From a virus: a stretch of 33,018 nt of DNA. The translations under genes and the position numbers were made by a program. Below the pieces are notes generated by a model that was not told the DNA's origin, made no database searches, and was given only the letters and a program-made list of their open reading frames with translations. This document shows, one piece after another, positions 4,094-24,560 of this stretch; position 1 is the first letter of the stretch; each line of letters begins with the position of its first letter. Location of the stretch: IMG/VR virus record IMGVR_UViG_3300025009_000298, positions 1 through 33,018 of that record; one strand, written 5' to 3'.

Positions 4094-4924
4094 TTATATT
4101 TTTAGCAGTTTATAATCAATCTCTTCAATCATTTTTAACCGGGCTTTAATCCGGTTTTCGAGTTTCATCCGTTTAGGTCCATTTGGCATTGGTTTTTTAA
4201 TTGTGCCCTGCTTTTCGCTCTGGTAGTCCAACAGGCTTTGGTCTTTCGTATTGGCGCTCTGCTGATTCTTTTTCATCTTTCGGAGCTGTTCCGCATCATC
4301 GGGTAATTCGGTTTTGGCTTTTTCTTTCGGCGTTGGCCATATTTCCGACTCTTCAGGAACAAATCCGGTGCTTTTATACACTTTCTGAATATCGTAAAGC
4401 AACTGGAGCCTATCCGATAACGATTTAACGATGCCAAAAAGCTGCTCGCGTTTTGTTTTTAATGCCTGGCTGTTGCCTTCGGGCATTTCAGTCATAATGC
4501 GGTGTGTTTTGCTTCGTTCCTGAAACGTTTCGGCATATTCGGCGATCACCCGGCGAATAATAGCAGGGTATTCCTCGATACGTTTCACATCAATAGTTTC
4601 TGGCATGGCATCGACTGCTTCGCGCTCAGCCACCGATGCTTTGCTAATCAGCGCTCCTGCTCCCTGAGCAGCGAAGCGTGTCAAAGGGAGCATATCTTTC
4701 ACCACTACGATTTTCTTTTCAACCAGCAACTGCCCGTACTCCAGTCCAACCGATTTACATAGTTCTGCAATAATTTTGGTCGAATAGCGCAACTTGTGAC
4801 CAGGGAAATCACGCCTTAACATTACGTTTCGTCCGTATGCGTTATAAAGCGCCACACCTGCCTCGTAATCGCAGCCGTCGGCAATCCATTGTAACACTTC
4901 CTGTTTAATTTCCTCTGAGTTCAT
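4094..4924 (-). CDS. Hypothetical helical late protein with palindrome-derived segments
   Basis: 276 aa, rich in charged helices. Not recognised as a known family. The first 80 residues look folded; residues about 190-250 are lysine- and glutamine-rich and likely disordered. Two short palindromic repeats lie inside the coding sequence in frame, encoding MLPLTRFAAQGAG and VAEREAVDAM near residues 80-104. Repeat insertion has thus apparently been tolerated in the protein. It overlaps the upstream sugar-transferase gene by 20 bp and precedes the small membrane protein by 3 bp, so it belongs to the same late transcript. Confidence 0.6.
   Translation of the reverse strand: MNSEEIKQEVLQWIADGCDYEAGVALYNAYGRNVMLRRDFPGHKLRYSTKIIAELCKSVGLEYGQLLVEKKIVVVKDMLPLTRFAAQGAGALISKASVAEREAVDAMPETIDVKRIEEYPAIIRRVIAEYAETFQERSKTHRIMTEMPEGNSQALKTKREQLFGIVKSLSDRLQLLYDIQKVYKSTGFVPEESEIWPTPKEKAKTELPDDAEQLRKMKKNQQSANTKDQSLLDYQSEKQGTIKKPMPNGPKRMKLENRIKARLKMIEEIDYKLLKI
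4611..4630. repeat. REP-like palindromic element, copy 1a (coding)
   Basis: TCGACTGCTTCGCGCTCAGC, nearly identical to the core of the copy at 24026-24050. It encodes EREAV in the host gene, and the 24026 copy encodes the same EREAV string. Confidence 0.6.
4660..4690. repeat. REP-like palindromic element, copy 1b (coding)
   Basis: CTCCCTGAGCAGCGAAGC followed by GTGTCAAAGGGAG. Arms CTCCCT and AGGGAG pair. Same family as the copies at 8944, 24026 and 29544 (core CTTCGACA...CTCAGG on one strand). Lies in frame inside the 4094-4924 gene. Confidence 0.65.
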
Positions 4925-5840
4925 TGTATATCATTTCAAATTTGAATTCCAGTTTGCGCTTCAGTCCTGGTGTTTCGCCCTGTTCAAATAATTTAAGCAT
5001 GTTTACTCCATGCAGGTATTTTCTGAACATTCCAACTCCTTTCTTATAATCGCGGTCACCTTCCAACCAACTACATATCTCCACCGTGCGGTCCTCAATT
5101 TCCGAAGCTTCAAAATCTGACTGTTCCGGAAAGTTTTTCCACAAAAAATAAATGAGCGAACGGTTTAATCCCTGATCGTTATACCCTAAGAATTGAGCGT
5201 TTTCCATTTTATTGACCAAATCGGCATATTTGTAATTTTTATAAATCGTCTTTTTCTGATTGCATAGGTGTTCGGCCTGTAGTTTCATTACGTTACCATA
5301 AATACTCCTGAAGGTCAGCCCAATTCCTTCGGCATAATCGTATTGTTGCATCACCATTCTGAAATCATTTTTATTCATCAGCATAGGAGCATGGTAATCG
5401 TATTGCAAGGTTGTTTCACCCCGTTCGAGTAAAGTTTCGAATGTTCGGCGAAGGCGGTGACGATAAAACTGAGCTTTCCAGAACGGTTCGGGCCTATCCT
5501 TCATATCGCCTTTGTGCATCCACGGTATTTCTGCTGCCACCACTGGTTGCATAATGATGAAATCGTCGTTCATAAACAGAAAATTATCCGATAACTCCGG
5601 AATATTACAGACATGAAGCAGTTTATGAATCATGTTCCCATCGGCATTAATTGCCGGATCAAAAATGTCTTTAGCCTTAATATGGATGATGTTTTGAAGA
5701 AATTTTGGACATTCGCCAACTACATAAATAGTACGAACACCCATCAGGTTTTTCTGAACACTTCGAAGGCTGAAGCGGATCTCATTGTCGTTCCATTTCG
5801 AGCCCGTACCCAATACATAAACCAAATCAATTGCTTCCAT
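4905..5840 (-). CDS. Stealth-like sugar-phosphate transferase / glycosyltransferase
   Basis: 311 aa. The start MEAIDLVYVLGTGSKWNDNE matches the conserved region 1 style of Stealth proteins (IDxVYxWVxGxD), and NFLFMNDDFIIMQPV (about residues 86-100) matches region 2. Stealth enzymes transfer sugar-1-phosphates to build capsule-type glycans. Region 3/4 histidines are less clear, though a YDYHAPMLMNK segment (about 148-158) fits an H-P pair region. It is the last of four adjacent surface-modification genes (7582 down to 4905). The likely job is to decorate the virion or alter the lysogen's surface; the substrate is unknown. Confidence 0.65.
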   Translation of the reverse strand: MEAIDLVYVLGTGSKWNDNEIRFSLRSVQKNLMGVRTIYVVGECPKFLQNIIHIKAKDIFDPAINADGNMIHKLLHVCNIPELSDNFLFMNDDFIIMQPVVAAEIPWMHKGDMKDRPEPFWKAQFYRHRLRRTFETLLERGETTLQYDYHAPMLMNKNDFRMVMQQYDYAEGIGLTFRSIYGNVMKLQAEHLCNQKKTIYKNYKYADLVNKMENAQFLGYNDQGLNRSLIYFLWKNFPEQSDFEASEIEDRTVEICSWLEGDRDYKKGVGMFRKYLHGVNMLKLFEQGETPGLKRKLEFKFEMIYNELRGN

Positions 5841-5843
5841 TGC

Positions 5844-6353
5844 TTATCTCATTATTCCGGCAAAGCGGATGTCGGTATTTGTATATGAAATTTCGAACCA
5901 CGAGAATTGCTCCAGATCAATCGCCTCAATAAGCATTTCGGCGGTGACATTGCAATAGTAAAATGGTGTTTTAGGGCTGTCCTGTGGCAAATGTTCCAAT
6001 GTACCATGTTCTTTTCGTCCTCTTCCGGCTGCGGTAATCAGGAGTAAACCTTCACCGTTCAGCAATTCAACCATGTGTTGTATGCTTTCTTTCCAATGCT
6101 CGTCGTGTTCAAGCATTTCGGTACTGATAATTACATCAAATACTTTTTCGGGCTGGTATAAATGCACCTGGGTAACCACATCAACGTTTTTACCCTCGCA
6201 AATGTCGATGCCTCTATATAAACCTCCATTGAACAGGTAACGATTGTTGCCGTTAATGTCAAGGCTTCCGCAGTCAAGAATATCTTTATTCTTAAACTTT
6301 TCAGGGAAGCGGCTTTTAATGCCTTCACAAAATTGTTTTACCTCTATATGCAT
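5844..6353 (-). CDS. Class I SAM-dependent methyltransferase
   Basis: 169 aa, a compact Methyltransf_11-like Rossmann fold. Motif I is represented by DILDCGSLDINGNN (about residues 24-37), with an acidic residue at GIDI (about 49-52). The post-motif VFDVIISTEMLEHDEHW (about 70-86) has the typical EMLEH, and GLLLITAAG (about 102-110) forms the next strand. Lying between sugar-transferase genes, it probably methylates a sugar or lipid-linked glycan, as in many glycan loci. Nothing suggests a nucleic-acid substrate. Tightly spaced in the operon (3 bases to the next start). Confidence 0.75.
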   Translation of the reverse strand: MHIEVKQFCEGIKSRFPEKFKNKDILDCGSLDINGNNRYLFNGGLYRGIDICEGKNVDVVTQVHLYQPEKVFDVIISTEMLEHDEHWKESIQHMVELLNGEGLLLITAAGRGRKEHGTLEHLPQDSPKTPFYYCNVTAEMLIEAIDLEQFSWFEISYTNTDIRFAGIMR

Positions 6354-6359
6354 CTGGAG

Positions 6360-7019
6360 TTATTTAAACTGTTTATAAAACTCAAAACTTTCTTTTCGTA
6401 CTCGTTGCTTAAGCCATTCTCTACTATTGTTTAAAGGAATTCTCAGGGGTTTACCGTTCTGTATCCCGTTATGAAAGTTGCCAGGGCAGAAACCAACGCC
6501 ATGTTTTATTCCAATGGGCGGATTTTGAAGATTGAGATATCCTTTGTTGCAATTGTGTTTCCAGAGTTCACGATCGAAATAAAGCAATGTAGTGTCTGGC
6601 CAGCTGAAATTTTCTAAAGCCGATATTTTAAAAGCTGTACAGAATAAAGACGATCTTCCGGGATGTTGCGAAACTCTTGGAAAGTTTTGTTGCAGCAAAT
6701 ACAATGTAGTTGTTTGAATGCCTACCATTTGTGCATTTTCTAACGCAATGCTGACTTTTTCAACGTAATCGTCGGGGTAATAATCATCATTTTCAATAAT
6801 GATGCAATATTCAAAACCACCATTTTTTGCCAGTTCAATTCCCTTTCGGATGCGAGGTACAATATCAACCACACCTTCAACAGCAATGTCGTTAAGAATA
6901 AAGTGTTCTCCTGCCTTGTATGTTTGCCTTTTCATCTGCCATATGCAATGTTCCAGAAATTTTGGGCGGTCGTTCCGATCTGGTGTTATAAGGCAAATCA
7001 GATTATTAGGTATTTTCAT
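6360..7019 (-). CDS. GT-A fold glycosyltransferase
   Basis: 219 aa. The start IPNNLICLITPDRNDRP resembles the nucleotide-sugar-binding strand of GT2-like enzymes. IIIENDDYYPDDYVEK (about residues 73-88) contains the D-x-D-type metal and sugar-phosphate site. The GVGFCPGNFHNG segment near residue 175 may contribute acceptor-site residues. Transfers a sugar from a nucleotide donor to an unknown acceptor in the cytoplasm. Second gene of the glycan-modification cluster, 8 bases after the previous stop. Confidence 0.72.
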   Translation of the reverse strand: MKIPNNLICLITPDRNDRPKFLEHCIWQMKRQTYKAGEHFILNDIAVEGVVDIVPRIRKGIELAKNGGFEYCIIIENDDYYPDDYVEKVSIALENAQMVGIQTTTLYLLQQNFPRVSQHPGRSSLFCTAFKISALENFSWPDTTLLYFDRELWKHNCNKGYLNLQNPPIGIKHGVGFCPGNFHNGIQNGKPLRIPLNNSREWLKQRVRKESFEFYKQFK

Positions 7020-7027
7020 GTTATGAT

Positions 7028-7582
7028 TTACATTAAGATGGATTTATCTGACGGTCCGTTTTTCATCCGGTAATAGTGCAGTACATACATGCCACGCATC
7101 AGGTATTGCTTCATCCCTGTTTTTCGTATCGCTTTACTAATCCGGGTATCAATGCCTAAAATGTTCTTACCGGTGGTCCAATCCTTCACCTGCTCACGAA
7201 TTAGTAACCAGGTAGATTTTCGTATCAGCATCAGGTAACCCAGCGCATTCAGTTCTCCCAAGTCGTTCACCTCTCCATGATAGGCAGCATGCAGCTGTTC
7301 GGCTTTTGTTCGGTGGTAAACTATTGATGGATTGTTCATATCGGCGCCTTTCCATTTCAATTCGGGGCGGCTCGTTCGGCTTGCATAACAGGTAAATAGT
7401 CCTGTTTCGGGATATTTATCGATGTATGTTTGCATCTGGTGACCAAAGTCTGATATCAGGAAAAGCACATCGCCGTCCATCATACACACCCAGTCGTTAG
7501 GATCCTGCACAAGGTTCATGTAAGCATCCCACGCTTCGAATAGCTTTTTATTAAAGGAATATGGAGTGAAATACCAGATCAT
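7028..7582 (-). CDS. GT-A fold glycosyltransferase
   Basis: 184 aa from ATG at 7582, chosen because it overlaps the upstream stop as ATGA and gives a start (MIWYFTPYSFNKKLFEAWDAYM) typical of this family. A longer frame reaches 7618. The acidic metal-site motif is in DWVCMMDGDVLFL (about residues 30-42). A later GYLMLIRKSTW segment and C-terminal LHYYRMKN fit small prokaryotic GT-A glycosyltransferases. Works with the two neighbouring transferases and the methyltransferase, probably adding successive sugars to one glycan. The donor is not predictable. Confidence 0.72.
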   Translation of the reverse strand: MIWYFTPYSFNKKLFEAWDAYMNLVQDPNDWVCMMDGDVLFLISDFGHQMQTYIDKYPETGLFTCYASRTSRPELKWKGADMNNPSIVYHRTKAEQLHAAYHGEVNDLGELNALGYLMLIRKSTWLLIREQVKDWTTGKNILGIDTRISKAIRKTGMKQYLMRGMYVLHYYRMKNGPSDKSILM

Positions 7583-7830
7583 GCCGCTTTTCTTCTCCTT
7601 CCATGCTGTTTTTGCCAACCTTTAAGTTTGTGGTGTTTTGTTGCCTGGGCAATAGAGGTATAATCGAGATTGAAGTTTTTGAACGCGAAATAATGATTCG
7701 TATTAACAAACTTTCCGTCATTGTGCTTTTTAGGACCACGTAAGTAAGCCGGAAGATGAGCATTTTTATTTTTTCTGAAACATTTCGGTGCAATCAATTG
7801 ACCTTTCTTTTCACTTCTGATTTTTTCCAT
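7579..7830 (-). CDS. Small basic hypothetical protein
   Basis: 83 aa from ATG at 7830 (MEKIRSEKKGQLIAPKCF), with a purine-rich GAAGAA a few bases upstream. A longer frame uses a TTG at 7896 and would add a hydrophobic leader, less likely. Strongly basic, ending GWQKQHGRRRKAA. Its TGA overlaps the next ATG, so it is translationally coupled to the glycosyltransferase. No family recognised; the repeated K/R content might bind nucleic acid. Confidence 0.5.
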   Translation of the reverse strand: MEKIRSEKKGQLIAPKCFRKNKNAHLPAYLRGPKKHNDGKFVNTNHYFAFKNFNLDYTSIAQATKHHKLKGWQKQHGRRRKAA

Positions 7831-16083: not shown

Positions 16084-19000
16084 TCAGAATGGCAAATCCT
16101 TCCCATTCCCATCCGCTCCCGGAGGATACATCTGCAATTGCAGACTGACGGCCTGTTGCTCCGGAGAAGGTACCTTGTTGCCTTCTCCGTTGGCTGAGCT
16201 TGTCGAAGCCATTTGGCTCGAACTACCCAAATCAATACCCAGCTTCTCGTAGTCCAATGCAATGGCGCTTGTGCGTTTCGATTCTTCGAACATGGTAGAT
16301 ATTACCCTGCCGCTGTTATCATCGGCCAGGTTGCGTATTTCGTTCTGCCACGTGAATGTGGTATGCTTTACCGCTCCCAGATAGGCCGGGTGGTCTTTCA
16401 GGTAGTTCTGCAGGTTGTTCATTTTCAAATGTTCCTGAATGCCTACCTTATCGCGGTATTTTGGGTGAATCACTTCCAAACGGACAAACAATACTTTCTT
16501 TGGCCCTTCGTCGAAAATCTTGATGCTGCTGTTCTTTTGCCCTTCGCGGATGGTAATCTCGTCGAGCAATTCAATCTTATATTCCTTGCCACGGATCAAT
16601 CCGTTACGGGTATCTTCTGTGAGTTGTACAAACGTATCGAAGAACACGGCCAGACGGTTGGAGCTGGTAATGCTTTCGCTCTGGTGGATCAGCTGCTTTC
16701 GTGCAATCTGGTAAAACTCCTTGTAGGTGAATGGTAATTCCAGTCCGGGAACATGCTCCTCAAACAACTTCACCATGGCCAGAAACAGTGAAATAGTATT
16801 CAATACGCGGTTTTGAAATCCGGAATGATCGTCGATTAAATCTTTTCGAAGTTCCTTTTGTACAATGCGAAGTTTGTTCTGATAATGATCTCTTACAATG
16901 GTGCGGCATTTCAATACTTCTACCAGTATCTCTGTAAGCCCTTCCTTCTCCCAGCGTTTCAGAAGTTGGAAATTAGCGATCTCGTTATCGCTCCACAATT
17001 CTCTTTTTTGTACACTCAGTAGAACTGCTCTATTGCCAAGTGATGCATCATCACGTTCCGGAGCTTCCTGTCCCAACAAAATCGGAACGGCATTAACCTG
17101 GCTAACATCAAGCGCCATTCCCTGTGCGCCCTGCCGTTTGGTTTTTCCTTCACCGTCGTAAATACTGGCTTTAATTCCCTGAAACTTAATATCAGATATC
17201 TGCTGGTCGTTGTATTCTTCCATGATGACCGGAGCATCGCGGTAACGCTGGAGCATAGTAAAAAATGCGGCATCGGTTCCGGAGTTCAGGTTAAACATCG
17301 GCGCATCGGGATGAATGTACAGTGCACGGATCGATTGTGCCAACTGCGATTTTCCGCACTCTGTAGGGCCGATAAAAAACAAGGTGGTGAATAGCCGGTC
17401 GATCTTAAAAATATCGCTCCGGAAGGCACACATAATGGCCATCAGTACCGTCCAGCATCCATTGTCGTTGTATTTATATACTTCGCGCACCAGGGCAGCC
17501 CAGTCCTTGAAATTGACGTTTTTGTTTTCGCGGTAAATAAAAAAACGGTCCAGTGCAAACTGATCTTCATCCTTGCGAACGTCCTTATATATGACCGATA
17601 TGGATGGCGAATAAAATGTGGTATCCCCGTGCTCGATCAGCCCCAGATCGTCCATGTATTTGATCTTGTTTTCGGCAAATACTGCATTACTGAAGGCGTA
17701 GAAGTCTTCGTTTTGCTGGCCGAAAATGGTTAGTTCGTAGGCGACAGGGAATTGCAGCGCGATGGAATCGAGAATAGTGTCCAAATGAAACACTTTGGCA
17801 TTCCGGAGAAGATACGGACCCTGACGAAACAGAAACTTTTTGAAGGCCCCAAACTCAATCATTTCGTTACTGGGGATCTCCACATATTTCGACGATCGTA
17901 AATCGGCATGATTGAGTTTACAGATACGTTTGTTCTTCAGCGGATCGTCGGAGAATACCTGAAACTGAGGTTCCATGTAGAAGTTCCCAACCTTGGTCAG
18001 GGTGCCATGTTCGGTAGCAAATACATAAAAGATCTTCTTACCGTCTTTATTCTGTGCTGCAAAATGATTGTATTTATTGAAGAACTTCTGATCGACGTAC
18101 TCGGGCAGTTTTTCAATCGAAAAAACGTAATGCTCATCATCGATCATGATTTCTTCGTTGCGCTGCTGCACCTTGTTTTTTACCTTACTCAGGAAGGGTT
18201 TCAGCACCTGCGCAAAATCGGCTTTCGACAGGCCAAAACGTTTGGCAATTTCGGCAGTCTTAATCGATATGGTTGTGTTATCGAGTTTACTCAGAAATTC
18301 GGCAGCCAACTCAACAGCTTCTTTCTTCGAATCCGGATCATAAGGTTTGATGCTTTCGGCCAGATAATCAAAATAAAATGTTGAGAACGAAACGTATTCC
18401 TGATCTAATGCATAATGAGTTCCACAATTCAGCACTACGGTAAATCCATTCTCGGATAAAAACTTCATTTGCTTGATTTGCCGTTGAATTTTAATACCAT
18501 CTTCCGGCGAAACTCCCTTACCTGCTTTAATTGACGCTAACTGTTCAAAGTCAAACTCTTCGGCAAAAACTAAGTTTTTAGTTATACCGCTTAGCTTTCC
18601 AATCTGTACGGCAGTTAATAATCCGGAGATAACAATCGAATTCGTTTCAAGATCAGATCCGGTATTGGCAAAAGCGGTTTCTTTTGAGGTGTAGATAAAT
18701 ACCTGGTCTTTTTCGCGGATGGCCGTTTCGTTCACGATCATTCCGAAAATTTCATCAGCCTTTTCTTCCTTGAAAATTCCGGCTTCTACCTTTTTGCGGT
18801 CGATACCGAATTTGTTGGCAACTTCAGAAAAGTAGGTTTCGCGGGTAACCAGATCAGGAACTTTCTTAACAGTATCAAGCAGCTCGTTAATCAGTTTTCC
18901 TTTTTCGGCAGGTTTTTGCTCAATGTCTTTCGCTGCAAGGTCGCACATCAGCAAAATAAAATCTTTCTCATTGTCCTCAATCCAGCGATACAGTTCGTCG

Positions 19001-20052
19001 CGGCTTTTTCCTTTGGCAAACGTGTCAGGATCTTCGCCTGTTGGCAACAGAGCCACATACACATTTAATCCCTCGGCAATACAAATATCGATGCCTTTTA
19101 CTGCTGCTTTCAAGCCTGCTCCGTCGCCATCGAACAGAATGGTCAGGTTATTGGTAAAGCGGTGGATCAGCCGGGCATGTTCAACCGTTAAGGCGGTTCC
19201 CGACGTACAAATGGTATTGGTCAATCCTTGTTTATGGAAACGGATCACATCGGTATTGCCTTCAACCAGGTAAGCTTTGCCCTCTTTTATAATGGCCGCT
19301 TTGGCCTGAAATAAACCATACAATAACCGGCCCTTATGAAACAATTCAGTTTCAGGAGAATTTAGGTATTTGGAGTCGTTTTTACCCGGATTCGGGTCGA
19401 GTATGCGCCCGGTAAATCCAACCACATGCCCCATCAGGTCGAAATACGGAAACATCACCCGGTCGCGGAAGCGGTCGAAGTACTTACCGGCATCACTTTT
19501 GCTTAATAAACCGGCTTTATGCAATTGTTGCGGATTGTAACCAAGCGAAGTCATGTGCTCCAGTAATCCGCCCCAGGCAGTGGCAATACTTCCCAATTCA
19601 AATTTCGACAGATCCACCAAATCAAAATCGCGGTCTTTCAGATAATTAATAGCCTGTCCGTGGTTCTTCAGATTGTCGGCGTAAAAGGTAGCTGCAACAC
19701 GGTTCATAGCGAACATCGTATCGCGCTCACTCCGCTTCTGAAGTTCATCGGCAGTCATTTCAACCTTTGGAATCTCGACATGATATTTTTTAGCCACGTA
19801 TTCAATTGCTTCCGGATAAGTCATAGCTTCGTGCTCCATTACAAAACTGATGGCATTACCTGCCTTTCCGCAGCCAAAACATTTAAATATACCCTTGGCC
19901 GGACTGACGATCATCGACGGGGTTTTCTCGTTATGAAAAGGGCAAACGCCCAGATAATTCACGCCTTTCTTCTTCAGGTTTACAAATTCGGAAACCACTT
20001 CTGTAATATTGGCGGCTGACAGTACTTTCTGGATAGTATCTTGTGGGATCAT
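16084..20052 (-). CDS. DnaG-type primase fused to a P-loop helicase-like domain
   Basis: 1322 aa, about twice the length of ordinary DnaG. Residues 37-61 form the CHC2 zinc finger (CPFH...CFGCG). VEGNTDV (about 263-269) and LFDGDGAG (about 305-312) are the Toprim metal-binding motifs of RNA primer synthesis. After a long middle region, FFIGPTECGKSQLAQS (about 892-907) is a Walker A, and APVIMEEYND (about 940) a Walker B, as in SF3-like or VapE/D5-type helicases. One protein thus appears to supply primase and helicase for phage replication, which would make it independent of host DnaG. Near the C-terminus, the coding DNA includes palindromes at 16161-16210. Confidence 0.87.
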   Translation of the reverse strand: MIPQDTIQKVLSAANITEVVSEFVNLKKKGVNYLGVCPFHNEKTPSMIVSPAKGIFKCFGCGKAGNAISFVMEHEAMTYPEAIEYVAKKYHVEIPKVEMTADELQKRSERDTMFAMNRVAATFYADNLKNHGQAINYLKDRDFDLVDLSKFELGSIATAWGGLLEHMTSLGYNPQQLHKAGLLSKSDAGKYFDRFRDRVMFPYFDLMGHVVGFTGRILDPNPGKNDSKYLNSPETELFHKGRLLYGLFQAKAAIIKEGKAYLVEGNTDVIRFHKQGLTNTICTSGTALTVEHARLIHRFTNNLTILFDGDGAGLKAAVKGIDICIAEGLNVYVALLPTGEDPDTFAKGKSRDELYRWIEDNEKDFILLMCDLAAKDIEQKPAEKGKLINELLDTVKKVPDLVTRETYFSEVANKFGIDRKKVEAGIFKEEKADEIFGMIVNETAIREKDQVFIYTSKETAFANTGSDLETNSIVISGLLTAVQIGKLSGITKNLVFAEEFDFEQLASIKAGKGVSPEDGIKIQRQIKQMKFLSENGFTVVLNCGTHYALDQEYVSFSTFYFDYLAESIKPYDPDSKKEAVELAAEFLSKLDNTTISIKTAEIAKRFGLSKADFAQVLKPFLSKVKNKVQQRNEEIMIDDEHYVFSIEKLPEYVDQKFFNKYNHFAAQNKDGKKIFYVFATEHGTLTKVGNFYMEPQFQVFSDDPLKNKRICKLNHADLRSSKYVEIPSNEMIEFGAFKKFLFRQGPYLLRNAKVFHLDTILDSIALQFPVAYELTIFGQQNEDFYAFSNAVFAENKIKYMDDLGLIEHGDTTFYSPSISVIYKDVRKDEDQFALDRFFIYRENKNVNFKDWAALVREVYKYNDNGCWTVLMAIMCAFRSDIFKIDRLFTTLFFIGPTECGKSQLAQSIRALYIHPDAPMFNLNSGTDAAFFTMLQRYRDAPVIMEEYNDQQISDIKFQGIKASIYDGEGKTKRQGAQGMALDVSQVNAVPILLGQEAPERDDASLGNRAVLLSVQKRELWSDNEIANFQLLKRWEKEGLTEILVEVLKCRTIVRDHYQNKLRIVQKELRKDLIDDHSGFQNRVLNTISLFLAMVKLFEEHVPGLELPFTYKEFYQIARKQLIHQSESITSSNRLAVFFDTFVQLTEDTRNGLIRGKEYKIELLDEITIREGQKNSSIKIFDEGPKKVLFVRLEVIHPKYRDKVGIQEHLKMNNLQNYLKDHPAYLGAVKHTTFTWQNEIRNLADDNSGRVISTMFEESKRTSAIALDYEKLGIDLGSSSQMASTSSANGEGNKVPSPEQQAVSLQLQMYPPGADGNGKDLPF
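16161..16210. repeat. Two adjacent palindromes in the primase 3' end
   Basis: CGGAGAAGG/CCTTCTCCG arms at about 16162-16189, then GGCTGAGCTTGTCGAAGCC at 16192-16210. The second is a short REP-like member (CTTCGACAAGCTCAG core). They encode the low-complexity MASTSSANGEGNKVPSPE tail. Confidence 0.65.
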
Positions 20053-22175: not shown

Positions 22176-22481
22176 TTAAGTAAATAAGTATCGGTCATTT
22201 TCTTCAACTATTGTTGTGGTGAATGGGAATCCGCTTTCCGGCACTTGTTTGATCACTTCAATCAAACCACCTGCTCCTGTAAAAACTACATGCTTCCGCT
22301 GATCAAATGATATTTGCAGACACAAACACTTTCCGGATCCTTTCTCTTTGAATACTTTGGAGTCCTCAATTTTGAAATGATGAACAACGATCTCCCTGTT
22401 CAGAATCTTCGACATTTTGATTTTCTCACCTTCAAAAGCCTGGCTTTCTACCTTGATGTTGAATTGGCTAAACGTGTTCAT
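22176..22481 (-). CDS. Hypothetical protein coupled to the DGR reverse transcriptase
   Basis: 101 aa, starting MNTFSQFNIKVESQAFEGE. It overlaps the end of the reverse-transcriptase gene by 14 bp, so it is translationally linked. Segments KCLCLQISFDQRKHVVFTGAG and PFTTTIVEENDRYLFT suggest an OB-like beta barrel, reminiscent of single-strand-binding folds. It does not resemble the four-helix Avd accessory protein. A role in the DGR reaction is inferred only from coupling. Confidence 0.55.
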   Translation of the reverse strand: MNTFSQFNIKVESQAFEGEKIKMSKILNREIVVHHFKIEDSKVFKEKGSGKCLCLQISFDQRKHVVFTGAGGLIEVIKQVPESGFPFTTTIVEENDRYLFT

Positions 22482-23427
22482 GGAGTAATTTCTTTAGGAG
22501 GTTTTTACTGTCGCAATGCGAGGCCCATCCGTTGTAGGAGGCGATTGATTTGGCATTTCTGTTCTTTACCATCATCCGTGCAAAGTTCTGTTTGATGCTC
22601 TTCCGTAGCAGCGTGTGCGTGTGGCGAAACACATAACCGACAAAGTCAATCCCCCGCGCATCAACCGGGAATACCTGGTAGTTTCCTTTGATGGTTAGTT
22701 TAAGCCGGTCGTTCAGATAATTCCTGATTTCGGAAAGCAATTGGTGCAAATAAGGCTTGCTGCTTGAGAGGATTACCAGATCATCAGCATAGCGGAAATA
22801 GTATTTTACCCGCTTGTTTTCTTTCATCCAGTGGTCGAAATAGCTCAGGTAAAAGTTGGCGAAATACTGGCTCAGGTAATTGCCGATTGGAAGGCCGTCA
22901 GTTGAATCAATAATCTCATCGAGTAGCCACAGCAGGTCGTTATCCTTAATTTTTCTGCGGAGGAGCTGCTTGAGTATTTCATGATCAACATTGGGATAAA
23001 ACTTCTTTATATCCAGCTTCAGACAATATTGCGTATTCTCAACATCCTTTAAAGCTCGTTTCACCGCATTGGCCGCAGGATGAATGCCTTTGCCCTTGAT
23101 GCAGCTGTAAGTATCAGCGGTGAAGGTTGACACGTATATTGGCTCCAAAACGTTCATCACCGCGTGATGGGTGATCCGGTCAGGAAAATAAGGCAACCGG
23201 AAGATCAGGCGCTCTTTGGGTTCAAAAATGGTGAATGTTGTATATTCTGATGTTTGATAGGTTTTATCCTTCAGCATTTCATGCAGCTTTTGAATATTTC
23301 CTTCCCGATTCCGGTCGTGCCCGATTACTCCAGGCTGTTTCGATTTACCCTTCCGCGCAATTTCATCGGCCAACTGGAGGTTATCGATGCTGTAAATCTT
23401 CTCGTATAAATTGTTGATCCGTTTCAT
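22468..23427 (-). CDS. DGR reverse transcriptase
   Basis: 319 aa, the usual size of DGR enzymes, consisting of reverse-transcriptase fingers, palm and thumb with no extra domains. LDIKKFYPNVDH (138-149) holds the first catalytic Asp, YADDLVIL (213-220) is the active-site box, and LPIGNYLSQYFANF (179-192) is the DGR-type form of motif 4, with I/LGxxxSQ in place of the usual QG. The gene begins 105 bases after the template repeat and lies downstream of two genes carrying matching variable repeats. It makes adenine-mutagenised cDNA from the template RNA and writes it into the target genes. It is likely co-transcribed with them. Confidence 0.93.
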   Translation of the reverse strand: MKRINNLYEKIYSIDNLQLADEIARKGKSKQPGVIGHDRNREGNIQKLHEMLKDKTYQTSEYTTFTIFEPKERLIFRLPYFPDRITHHAVMNVLEPIYVSTFTADTYSCIKGKGIHPAANAVKRALKDVENTQYCLKLDIKKFYPNVDHEILKQLLRRKIKDNDLLWLLDEIIDSTDGLPIGNYLSQYFANFYLSYFDHWMKENKRVKYYFRYADDLVILSSSKPYLHQLLSEIRNYLNDRLKLTIKGNYQVFPVDARGIDFVGYVFRHTHTLLRKSIKQNFARMMVKNRNAKSIASYNGWASHCDSKNLLKKLLHEHV

Positions 23428-23532
23428 ATTTGGCCTTTGCTTTTAATGGATCGTTTTCGCTTTCGTTACCAACGCTCCGTTAAAGAATTCGTTATTTTTT
23501 GCACTGTTGGCAAGGTCTACACTGCCAGTATC

Positions 23533-23613
23533 GCATAGGTGAGAGCTGACATTCGTATTCGTGTTATCGTAGTTGTAATTCGAGTTCGAAAAACTGAAAC
23601 TGGAAGACAGAAC
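23533..23613 (-). repeat. DGR template repeat (TR)
   Basis: 81 bp, read on the - strand. It matches VR1 over the full length and VR2 over 78 bp, with mismatches only at TR adenines: 13 of 22 for VR1 and 14 of 22 for VR2. Translated in the VR frame it encodes many Asn codons (AAC/AAT), the classic design for wide variation. It sits in a frame of 63 aa (23443-23634) that is probably not a gene. The stretch from here to the reverse transcriptase start is the likely non-coding template RNA tail. Confidence 0.92.
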
Positions 23614-23647
23614 TAGCAGCAACGCAGCGTACAACCTTTCTTATATT

Positions 23648-24079
23648 TTACTCCGGATAGAGAAAGTATTCCTGGTATTCAGTCTTGAACTGTTCGGCTA
23701 TATACAAGGCTTTCTCTGAGGAGTCAGTGCAAAGGCGAGAGCCGACAATCGTATCCGCGTTACCGTAGAAGTAATCCGAGTACGAAAAACCGAAACCGGA
23801 AGACAGAACCCTGTACCAAGGGAAGTATTTGTATTGATTAGAGTCGCTCCAATCGGGTCTCCAACCGTTATTAATTGCAAGAAAGATGATCATCAGCTTA
23901 TAGGCTGCAATGATCGGTTTGCGAAGATCCTCTGGGATCATTGAAACATCAGGAAGAGCGGTCGGATCAACGTTTTGCTTTGCGCAAGCATCTTCAAACG
24001 ATTTGATTGTTCTGAAATCGAATACGCCTTCGACTGCTTCGCGCTCAGGCACCATTGTTTTTTGTGATTTTTTGGCCAT
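23648..24079 (-). CDS. DGR variable target protein 1
   Basis: 143 aa. The N-terminal part contains a conserved block shared with the neighbouring target: TIKSFEDACAK, AINNGWRPDW, NQYKYFPWYRVLSSGFGFS. The C-terminal SGFGFSYSDYFYGNADTIVGS then RLC is the variable-repeat product, in the C-type-lectin/formylglycine-enzyme-like style in which surface loops vary. This architecture matches ligand-binding display proteins of gut Bacteroidota phages. What it binds and whether it is virion-attached are unknown. A REP-like palindrome encodes its N-terminal PEREAVEG. Only 4 bases separate it from target 2. Confidence 0.82.
   Translation of the reverse strand: MAKKSQKTMVPEREAVEGVFDFRTIKSFEDACAKQNVDPTALPDVSMIPEDLRKPIIAAYKLMIIFLAINNGWRPDWSDSNQYKYFPWYRVLSSGFGFSYSDYFYGNADTIVGSRLCTDSSEKALYIAEQFKTEYQEYFLYPE
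23729..23809 (-). repeat. DGR variable repeat VR1
   Basis: 81 bp at the 3' end of the target gene. Differs from TR at 13 positions, every one an adenine in TR. Differences at the 3' end (GGCTCTCGCCTTTGC in VR, AGCTCTCACCTATGC in TR) match the pattern of an IMH versus IMH* pair that fixes the direction of transfer. Confidence 0.92.
24026..24050. repeat. REP-like palindromic element, coding
   Basis: Arms GCCT and AGGC around TTCGACTGCTTCGCGCTC. Same core as 4611-4630. Lies in the 5' part of the VR1 target gene and supplies the PEREAVEG segment. Confidence 0.65.
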
Positions 24080-24083
24080 GGTT

Positions 24084-24560
24084 TTATTTTTTGATGGTTA
24101 GAAATTGTTCATACAGGTCAATAAATTGCTTGGCAGCATAGTTTGATTTTGCCTCAGATTCGAAGCAAAGGCGAGAGCCGACAGACGTATTCGTGTGACC
24201 GTAGGTGCAACCCGAGTCCGAAAAACCGAAACCGGAAGACAGCTTGAAGTAAGGCCACCATTTTTGCTGATTGGTATTGTCCCAATCTAGAGTCCAGCCC
24301 TGGTTAATTGCCTTCACTACAATTTTTAGTTTTTCATAGTTGATAGTATCCAGATCCAGTCCAAGTGCGGCAAACTTGTAGTTAAATTCTTCTTCCGTAA
24401 TTCCAACCTCTTCGCAGGCATCTGCAAAGGTTTTGATGTCGGTGAATTCTCTTTTTTTGAAACAATCTTCTCCAAATGTTTCGGTCAGTACATTCTGAAA
24501 CCACTTAGGAGCTTCAGGATAAAGCTTTTTTGCTGTTGTTTTTTTGAGTGTTAATTCCAT
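24084..24560 (-). CDS. DGR variable target protein 2
   Basis: 158 aa, paralogous to target 1. Shared segments include DIKTFADACEEVG, AINQGWTLDWDNTNQQKWW and SSGFGFS. The C-terminal variable part SDSGCTYGHTNTSVGSRLC comes from VR2. Codons changed relative to TR give different residues from target 1 at the same positions (for example N to D, G, T or H), as expected from independent mutagenesis. It is the first target gene in transcription order. Two targets served by one TR widen the diversity. Likely a ligand-binding display protein; attachment site unknown. Confidence 0.82.
   Translation of the reverse strand: MELTLKKTTAKKLYPEAPKWFQNVLTETFGEDCFKKREFTDIKTFADACEEVGITEEEFNYKFAALGLDLDTINYEKLKIVVKAINQGWTLDWDNTNQQKWWPYFKLSSGFGFSDSGCTYGHTNTSVGSRLCFESEAKSNYAAKQFIDLYEQFLTIKK
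24165..24242 (-). repeat. DGR variable repeat VR2
   Basis: 78 bp matching TR. 14 mismatches, all at TR adenines. The final three bases of the 81-bp unit (CTT for AAC) mark the end of homology. The 3' border again reads GGCTCTCGCCTTTGC as in VR1. Confidence 0.9.

Follow-up and report, generated by a model that had tools for sequence, protein, structure and literature searches.

The window analysed here, a stretch of 33,018 bases that makes up the whole of a single-contig virus record (IMG/VR virus record IMGVR_UViG_3300025009_000298), comes from a Bacteroidota phage and carries a diversity-generating retroelement (DGR) with one template repeat (TR) and two variable repeats (VRs), each VR lying in one of two adjacent paralogous target genes. 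The spacer between TR and the reverse transcriptase (RT) gene contains a short element that, as sequence comparison shows, exactly complements the VR 3' end, the site of initiation of mutagenic homing (IMH), and does not exactly complement the corresponding TR end (IMH*). The assignment as a DGR follows from the type of RT, the mismatches between TR and VR at adenines, the change of VRs while TR stays constant, and the IMH/IMH* distinction. The DGR is active in close relatives of the window and one TR serves two targets; we consider it somewhat more likely than not that the spacer element acts as both primer and guide. The cassette lies on the minus strand in the order target 2, target 1, TR, RT, 101-aa gene and HNH gene, with the following features.

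24084-24560, minus strand: target gene 2, TR-distal, 158 aa, holding VR2; open reading frame (ORF), PHROG 11581 at E 1.8e-26.
24165-24242, minus strand: VR2, 78-bp core, from the TR/VR comparison.
24163-24172, in plus-strand coordinates: VR2 3' end extended by the two bases below VR2, reading GCCTTTGCTT on the coding strand and complementary to the spacer over 10 nt.
23648-24079, minus strand: target gene 1, TR-adjacent, 143 aa, holding VR1; ORF, PHROG 11581 at E 1.5e-25.
23729-23809, minus strand: VR1, 81 bp, with the 3' end GCCTTTGC (23729-23736) complementary to the spacer element over 8 nt.
23533-23613, minus strand: TR, 81 bp, with the IMH*-like 3' end ACCTATGC (23533-23540), two mismatches against the VR end.
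23428-23532, minus strand: TR-RT spacer, a conserved structured RNA.
23433-23440, minus strand: spacer element GCAAAGGC, fully complementary to the VR 3' end (IMH) and not to TR.
22468-23427, minus strand: DGR reverse transcriptase, 319 aa; RVT_1, PHROG 1423 and identity to the BPP-1 RT (bRT).
22176-22481, minus strand: candidate accessory protein of 101 aa with a predicted OB-fold-like structure; the gene's start overlaps the end of RT; PHROG 19665 at E 1.4e-10.
22169-21315, minus strand: HNH gene, downstream of the 101-aa gene.

Complementarity of the spacer element to the VR 3' end

Related loci were taken from an RT scan that returned 244 viral stretches, the best 80 of the 244 being used (70-100% identity), and VRs were sought in each locus as near-repeats with adenine-biased mismatches. 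Sites at the 3' end are numbered from the C of CGCCTTTGC as 0, and the 3'-end columns hold 128 distinct TR/VR pairs, of which 4 rows are mis-anchored (L072, L074 and L075). The element GCAAAGGC is the complement of VR +1 to +8 (GCCTTTGC), the VR 3' end in 112 of the 128 pairs, and GCAAAG was invariant in 49 aligned spacers and present in 59 of the 62 distinct spacers. The TR 3' end differed from VR at at least 2 of these 8 positions in every one of the 128 pairs, the mis-anchored rows included. An exact complement of the VR 8-mer was found in the spacer of 42 of 62 loci, compared to none for the TR 8-mer. For VR +3 to +8 the figure was 56 of 62, against 2 of 62 for the TR 6-mer. Three of the six misses (L018, L024 and L051) differ by a G-T wobble, L070 shows a matched change (CGCCTTGC/GCAAGGCG), and L074 and L075 are mis-anchored and also lack the element.

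As a control within each locus, the longest spacer complement was compared between VR and TR, for which equal lengths would be expected by chance. VR was longer in 195 of 253 pairs, shorter in 18 and tied in 40; among 118 spacer clusters the corresponding counts were 80, 15 and 23 (sign p 3e-12). Across 61 tail clusters the mean complement was 8.34 nt for the locus's own VR, 7.33 nt for other VRs and 4.90 nt for its own TR (permutation p 2e-4), own VR exceeding own TR in length in 54 of the 61. The same order was observed in the 21 tail clusters that lack GCAAAG (own VR 6.90 nt, VRs of other loci 5.51 nt, own TR 5.0 nt; permutation p 2e-4), with VR longer than TR in 16 and shorter in 3. Examples of covarying elements are GCCTGGCTTT, TTCGCTT, CTTTGTTTT and CGCCTTGC, together with TTGTGCCGTT in Bacteroides phage Versailles.

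Duplex energies were compared in the same way. VR was stronger than TR by 38 to 4 among 42 in the near group, by 31 to 0 among 31 loci with at least 55% RT identity, and by 1 to 0 for Versailles. Own VRs and those of other loci did not differ in the near group (-17.58 vs -17.89), as expected because the element is shared there. In the window itself, the fit was longer for target 2 (10 nt) than for target 1 (8 nt). In BPP-1, spacer bases 48-56 (AGGTGGTCA) complement the VR stretch TGACCACCT at all 9 positions and TR at 6 of 9; this stretch was one among many loci tested, with a shuffle p of 0.01. The last base of AGGTGGTCA, at spacer position 56, is presumably the BPP-1 priming adenosine.

Differences between TR and VR and the fixed 3' boundary

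All 13 mismatches of VR1 and all 14 of VR2 lie at TR adenines on the coding strand, in agreement with the first-pass annotation of this DNA. The 78-bp core of TR holds 22 adenines, and the chance of an all-adenine placement is 2e-9 for VR1 and 3e-10 for VR2. The same annotation had the two VRs differing from each other; they do so at 10 sites, every one a TR adenine. It had also read the adenine mismatches as the signature of mutagenesis, which holds for their placement and does not hold for all of them, five being fixed distinctions between TR and VR. At 7 mismatching adenines VR1 and VR2 share the identical base. Three of these are 3' sites fixed across the family (-6 A>G, +1 A>G and +5 A>T, the last synonymous), two are 5' sites that are also fixed, with G in VR at 238 of 240 TR CAG adenines (rows not deduplicated), and the remaining two sit in variable columns. 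Because five adenine mismatches are family-fixed, the truly diversified sites number approximately 8 in VR1 and 9 in VR2.

TR had A at site -6 in 122 of the 128 pairs, and VR had G in 120 of those 122. At +1 there were 112 pairs with A in TR and 112 with G in VR, and at +5 VR had T in all 103 pairs with A in TR. VR followed TR at -1 in 128 of 128 pairs and at -4 in all 124 pairs without A at that site. Sites -6, +1 and +5 thus behave unlike the others and mark an IMH/IMH* boundary. Site -6 corresponds to 23547 in the window TR, 23743 in VR1 and 24179 in VR2.

A BPP-1-type hairpin after VR was not found in 115 stretches of 45 nt. The mean z was -0.44 for 57 stretches from target 1 and -0.57 for 58 from target 2, compared to -3.8 for BPP-1, and 9 of the 115 had z below -2. 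The BPP-1 hairpin boosts efficiency and is not strictly required, according to PMC12875486, so a hairpin was not taken to define a DGR.

Rewriting of VRs in close relatives

Across 5500 bases, no difference separates the window from its nearest relative, L002. Whole-VR rewrites were found in five other near-identical pairs of loci (L004/L005, L038/L044, L038/L041, L041/L042 and L071/L073), with backbones that differ at 1-12 bases per 1.9-8.7 kb and TRs that do not differ at all. The rewritten VRs hold 56 differences, of which 54 are at TR adenines; the other 2 are bases restored to the TR state and are therefore direct evidence for copying from TR. Each pair keeps at least one other VR unchanged, two VRs differ in L041/L042, and in the five rewrites the changes end at -10 to -12. 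Enrichment over the backbone was significant in every pair (Fisher p 3e-8 to 7e-22); the count used for the Fisher tests includes one further difference 80 bases upstream, for 57 in total with 55 at A. The first-pass annotation had named the comparison of TR with VRs of relatives as the way to judge activity, and the outcome was change almost wholly at TR adenines beside a constant TR. Activity of the DGR family in close relatives of the window is supported, because near-identical relatives carry rewritten VRs beside an unchanged VR. Separately, in the three-target loci L042 and L043 the third VR alone differs, at 13 sites, each of them a TR adenine; the 5666 bases compared outside the repeats are identical.

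The TR-RT spacer RNA

Of 62 distinct spacers, 61 place TR and RT 93-134 nt apart; in L065 the distance is 255 nt. A structure of 14 pairs was derived from, and assessed on, the same alignment of 49 spacers. Outside this alignment are 13 spacers: L004, L007, L018 and L065, which have insertions; L070, L074 and L075, which are divergent and lack GCAAAG; and L015, L023, L026, L042, L050 and L069. Paired cells made up 95.9% (83.3% in shuffles), two-sided changes were seen in 98 cells (21 in shuffles), and covariation was 0.428 (0.173 in shuffles and at most 0.112 when slid); none of 500 shuffles reached any of the three values. The alignment indicates that the TR-RT spacer is a conserved, covarying structured RNA. 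No Rfam family matched in the window at gathering score. In L004, L007 and L018 a short imperfect palindrome (CCTTCGACGGGCTCAGGAACC-like) that resembles an inserted repeat separates the spacer element from the RT start.

The 101-aa gene

The 101-aa gene was found in 77 of the 80 related loci. Two of the others, L007 and L011, end 6 and 13 nt past RT, and L079 gave no match. The first-pass annotation had coupled the two targets with this gene and with an HNH nuclease; the coupling stands for the 101-aa gene and falls for HNH, which we rejected as a cassette member because it is present in only 2 of 80 loci, L002 (the near-identical relative) and L004. DUF5131 was found in 5 of 80 loci and a primase in 7 of 80; these neighbour counts refer to flanks of at most 4 kb, some of them shorter.

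An alignment scan for the 101-aa protein covered viral collections (best 80 of 233) and bacterial collections, plus two archaeal-virus loci, and overlaps the records of the RT scan. RT was present in 97 of 99 loci with the gene, and in the other two the gene starts 2 and 47 bases from a contig end. Bacterial matches were named Bacteroidota or Ignavibacteria in 25 of 26 cases and an uncultured bacterium in one, the nearest being Prolixibacteraceae metagenome-assembled genomes. When loci were grouped by RT identity to the window or to the crAss-like cr55_1, with 8 too-short loci excluded, the family followed RT in 35 of 37 loci at 68% identity or more, 27 of 40 at 55-68% and 3 of 23 below 55%. 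It followed RT in 1 of 55 ANMV-1-like loci (ANMV-1 itself), 0 of 3 BPP-like loci and 0 of 1 for Versailles.

The AlphaFold model (pLDDT 88.5) follows the OB-fold order, beta-beta-beta-alpha-beta-beta. In the VIA structure comparison the best row had Z 6.3 (69 residues, 3.3 A), and a single-stranded DNA-binding protein (SSB), 3lgj, had 5.6; all rows were under Z 8 and so below the safe level. The rows, which include RuvBL external domains, SSBs, PriB, POT1 and HIN domains, are for the most part OB-folds of nucleic-acid-binding proteins. Foldseek gave no match to the model at E<=0.001, and a profile search against solved structures gave no relative (best E 0.2). The protein is thus predicted to be OB-fold-like, and its gene is a candidate for an accessory protein of RT because of its position, its overlap with RT and its co-occurrence with RT. 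The DGR accessory proteins named in PMC10053308 are Avd, HRDC and MSL, plus one unnamed protein without Pfam match from work cited there. That unnamed protein may be the 101-aa family. The cited work is presumably Wu 2018.

Proposed mechanism and alternatives

We propose, tentatively and with a little less than even confidence, that this lineage and BPP-1 locate their targets by base pairing. The element at the priming site would complement IMH and the mismatched TR would escape, so that homing would be RNA-guided, with the guide joined to the complementary DNA (cDNA) and an OB-fold protein in place of Avd. RT copies the TR RNA, placing random bases opposite its adenines, and the resulting cDNA replaces the VR of one or other of the two small paralogous proteins. 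If cDNA starts from an adenosine at the element site, by analogy with BPP-1, cDNA and element would form one branched molecule. The cDNA (up to about site 0) and the element (+1 to +8) could then anneal side by side on the VR coding strand as a continuous duplex, a placement in keeping with a boundary at the fixed 3' sites. On TR, IMH* would allow a weak priming duplex and no stable pairing, and the molecule would move on to VR and leave TR intact. The 101-aa protein may protect or hand over single strands as a substitute for Avd. The step from pairing to the homing of an RNA-linked cDNA is one that we infer.

Several observations weigh against this proposal. Most element sequences are shared by descent, so that the loci counted represent far fewer independent classes. 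VR stays G at -6 (120 of 122) though neighbouring sites follow TR, and guiding by the element leaves this site unexplained. In the spacer RNA, further pair types (23 vs 20.3) were reached by 43 of 500 shuffles and are not clearly above expectation. The window's own DGR shows no change compared to L002. The preference for VR is weak (27 to 14, p 0.03) in the 59 clusters whose VR lacks TTTGC, and in 7 of the 61 tail clusters (L065, L081, L278, L282, L294, L297 and L098) the VR complement does not exceed that of TR. In the GCCTGGCTTT class (L285, L288, L311 and L312) the TR-distal VR fits over 10-12 nt and the TR-proximal VR over approximately 5 nt, one VR each in L057 and L062 disrupts the match, and L074 and L075 lack the element. 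Below 55% RT identity, VR exceeds TR in energy by 11 to 6 of 17, which is not significant, and the VR-to-TR count in the 3 BPP-like loci is 3 to 0 by run length and 1 to 2 by energy. In ANMV-1-like DGRs, VR was stronger in 9 and TR in 15 of 24 by duplex energy, and run length gave 9 to 6 with 9 ties. A universal element rule was rejected for the ANMV-1-like DGRs as a group on both measures.

The strongest alternative, although we regard it as less likely than guiding by the element, is an ordinary two-target DGR in which IMH is read by a protein or by DNA structure, the element only primes on TR, and the match to VR is a by-product of the drift of TR to IMH*. RNAalifold pairs TGC of TR with GCA of the element in 98.0% of cells, which is what a priming duplex would require. 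The element is still matched at 6 of 8 positions by the commonest TR, and IMH/IMH* differences are known in BPP-1 (PMC3240598). However, a priming duplex alone would preserve the complementarity of TR and not that of VR, and the positions of the TR mismatches shift (ACCTATGC, GCAATTGC, ACCTCTGC, ACCTAAGC, GAGTTTGC, ACCTTTCC and GACTATGC) while VR keeps its match, even at a synonymous site. The covariation of the element with VR in the 21 tail clusters without GCAAAG also argues against this alternative, as do the stretches after VR, with no BPP-1-like hairpin found.

Translational control is considerably less probable. Here the VR end in a polycistronic mRNA would pair with the element by the RT start codon and tune RT synthesis, and in most loci the element does lie directly before that codon, at a median distance of 0. 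However, it is 25-27 nt away in L004, L007 and L018, 95 nt in L065 and 88 nt in BPP-1, and in L065 it is also farther from TR (151 vs a median of 92). The same distances of 25-95 nt led us to reject the element as a ribosome-binding site. That the DGR is dead at the window locus, its VRs holding old changes only, fits the identity of the window with L002 and is very improbable given five rewrites among relatives with the same cassette and the open reading frame of RT.

Identity of the cassette genes and their neighbors

An IGxxxSQ-like motif and YxDD are marks of DGR-type RTs, and the RT of the window, which reads as an open frame, has both (IGNYLSQ and YADD), as first annotated. An RT-family search, suggested at that stage as a check, placed RVT_1 above its cut-off, with PHROG 1423 (reverse transcriptase) at E 3e-131 and Bordetella BPP-1 bRT at 33% identity over 318 columns (E 2e-49). 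All NCBIfam RT models were below their cut-offs on this protein, and its PADLOC matches were to defence RTs in general. The 81-bp TR and two adjacent paralogous targets were likewise recovered, both targets matching PHROG 11581, a family of unknown function, and both carrying SRLC/A. Neither target had a Pfam match above cut-off, and target 1 had no match to named phages at E 1e-5. The model of target 1 (mean pLDDT 81, 46-51 across most of VR) gave 0 Foldseek matches at E<=0.001 and, against 13 chains in VIA, one row at Z 3.1; neither tool gave a useful match from which a C-type-lectin (CLec) fold or another could be assigned. Apart from a 63-aa frame over TR, no Avd-sized ORF is present between target 1 and RT. 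The Avd profile PF05635 had 0 matches in 16 records and also missed BPP-1, so that the positive control failed.

At least two VRs were found in 71 of 80 related loci, with three in six loci (L041, L042, L043, L062, L072 and L081). One VR was found in four (L051, L064, L074 and L080) and none in five (L014, L036, L037, L039 and L066). Seven of these nine have less than 700 nt upstream of RT; of those with more, L080 (2.3 kb) yielded one VR, and in L037 (4 kb) no pair was found. Two targets are a trait of the lineage. In a tree of targets with VR removed, the TR-proximal and TR-distal copies separate (local support 0.964), with 9 of 117 tips misplaced. Four of these (L018, L025, L048 and L057) are apparent errors of ORF choice, four (L038, L041, L062 and L072) are extra middle copies, and the ninth is the single target of L080. 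Because the tree splits proximal from distal copies, the target pair is an old duplication, early in the lineage. A Prolixibacteraceae contig, DMSQ01000040.1 (L172 and L197), has two DGRs approximately 40 kb apart. The first is two-target like that of the window, and the second has a single VR found, 115-bp repeats with 19 of 19 differences at A, and a 101-aa homologue of 38% identity.

Ten flanking proteins from six relatives comprised two primase-like proteins, one helicase/primase, one DNA methyltransferase, one head protease, two proteins in families of unknown function and three without match. The neighboring genes therefore give no positional support for a receptor-binding role of the targets. 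Elsewhere in the window, positions 4905-7618 encode a Stealth_CR2 domain protein and a methyltransferase-like protein, then two ORFs without Pfam match, in the same phage half as the head protease gene. Positions 16084-20052 encode a 1322-aa DnaG-type primase with a long C-terminal part without Pfam match.

Comparison with known systems

The BPP-1 DGR (NC_005357) resembles that of the window in its A-specific TR/VR differences, IMH/IMH*, TR-RT spacer and RT (33% identical), and in a 9-nt spacer stretch complementary to VR and not TR. In contrast, the single target of BPP-1 is a tail protein, and BPP-1 has an avd gene, annotated repeats of 134 bp and a hairpin after VR, whereas the window has two small paralogous targets, an extra gene after RT and no clear hairpin after VR. 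The DGR of the crAss-like phage LMMB (lineage 3; PMC7290462) shares an RT of approximately 50% identity, the order of target gene, VR, TR and RT, and an apparent lack of avd. According to the same source, CLec3-class VRs have SRLC/A, as in both window targets, whereas LMMB-type VRs have lost it and the single target is a tail-collar fibre. In cr55_1, the crAss-like locus examined in place of LMMB, the gene after RT gave no match to the 101-aa profile.

The phage DGRs nd4/nd12 with tentaclins also have one TR and two targets; their targets differ in topology and an AVD gene is present, unlike the window, with both targets in one small family (PHROG 11581) duplicated early in its lineage (PMC10743442 for nd4/nd12). 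The DGR of the archaeal virus ANMV-1 (KP703175; PMC4372165) has a 101-aa homologue directly after RT (34.9% identity, profile E 6e-20), and its VR binds the spacer better than TR by duplex energy (-21.0 vs -15.3). It is unlike the window in that one TR/VR pair was found and the longest exact complement is 5 nt.

Neither the pairing of element and IMH nor the 101-aa accessory gene is described in the parts used here of PMC3240598, PMC12875486, PMC7290462, PMC10743442, PMC4372165, PMC6642488, PMC8144416, PMC10053308, PMC8867640 and PMC11792537. The homing of cDNA into VR was still incompletely understood in 2026 (PMC12875486). If true, a base-pairing rule would address both homing and the sparing of TR, and would give a simple prediction of DGR targets. 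The two-target state is already known for DGRs (PMC10743442); what is new here is the lineage, its RNA, the accessory gene and, above all, the target-complementary element. The lineage also shows a single template for two genes that can each be rewritten singly, and it offers a widespread non-Avd accessory candidate together with a structured RNA.

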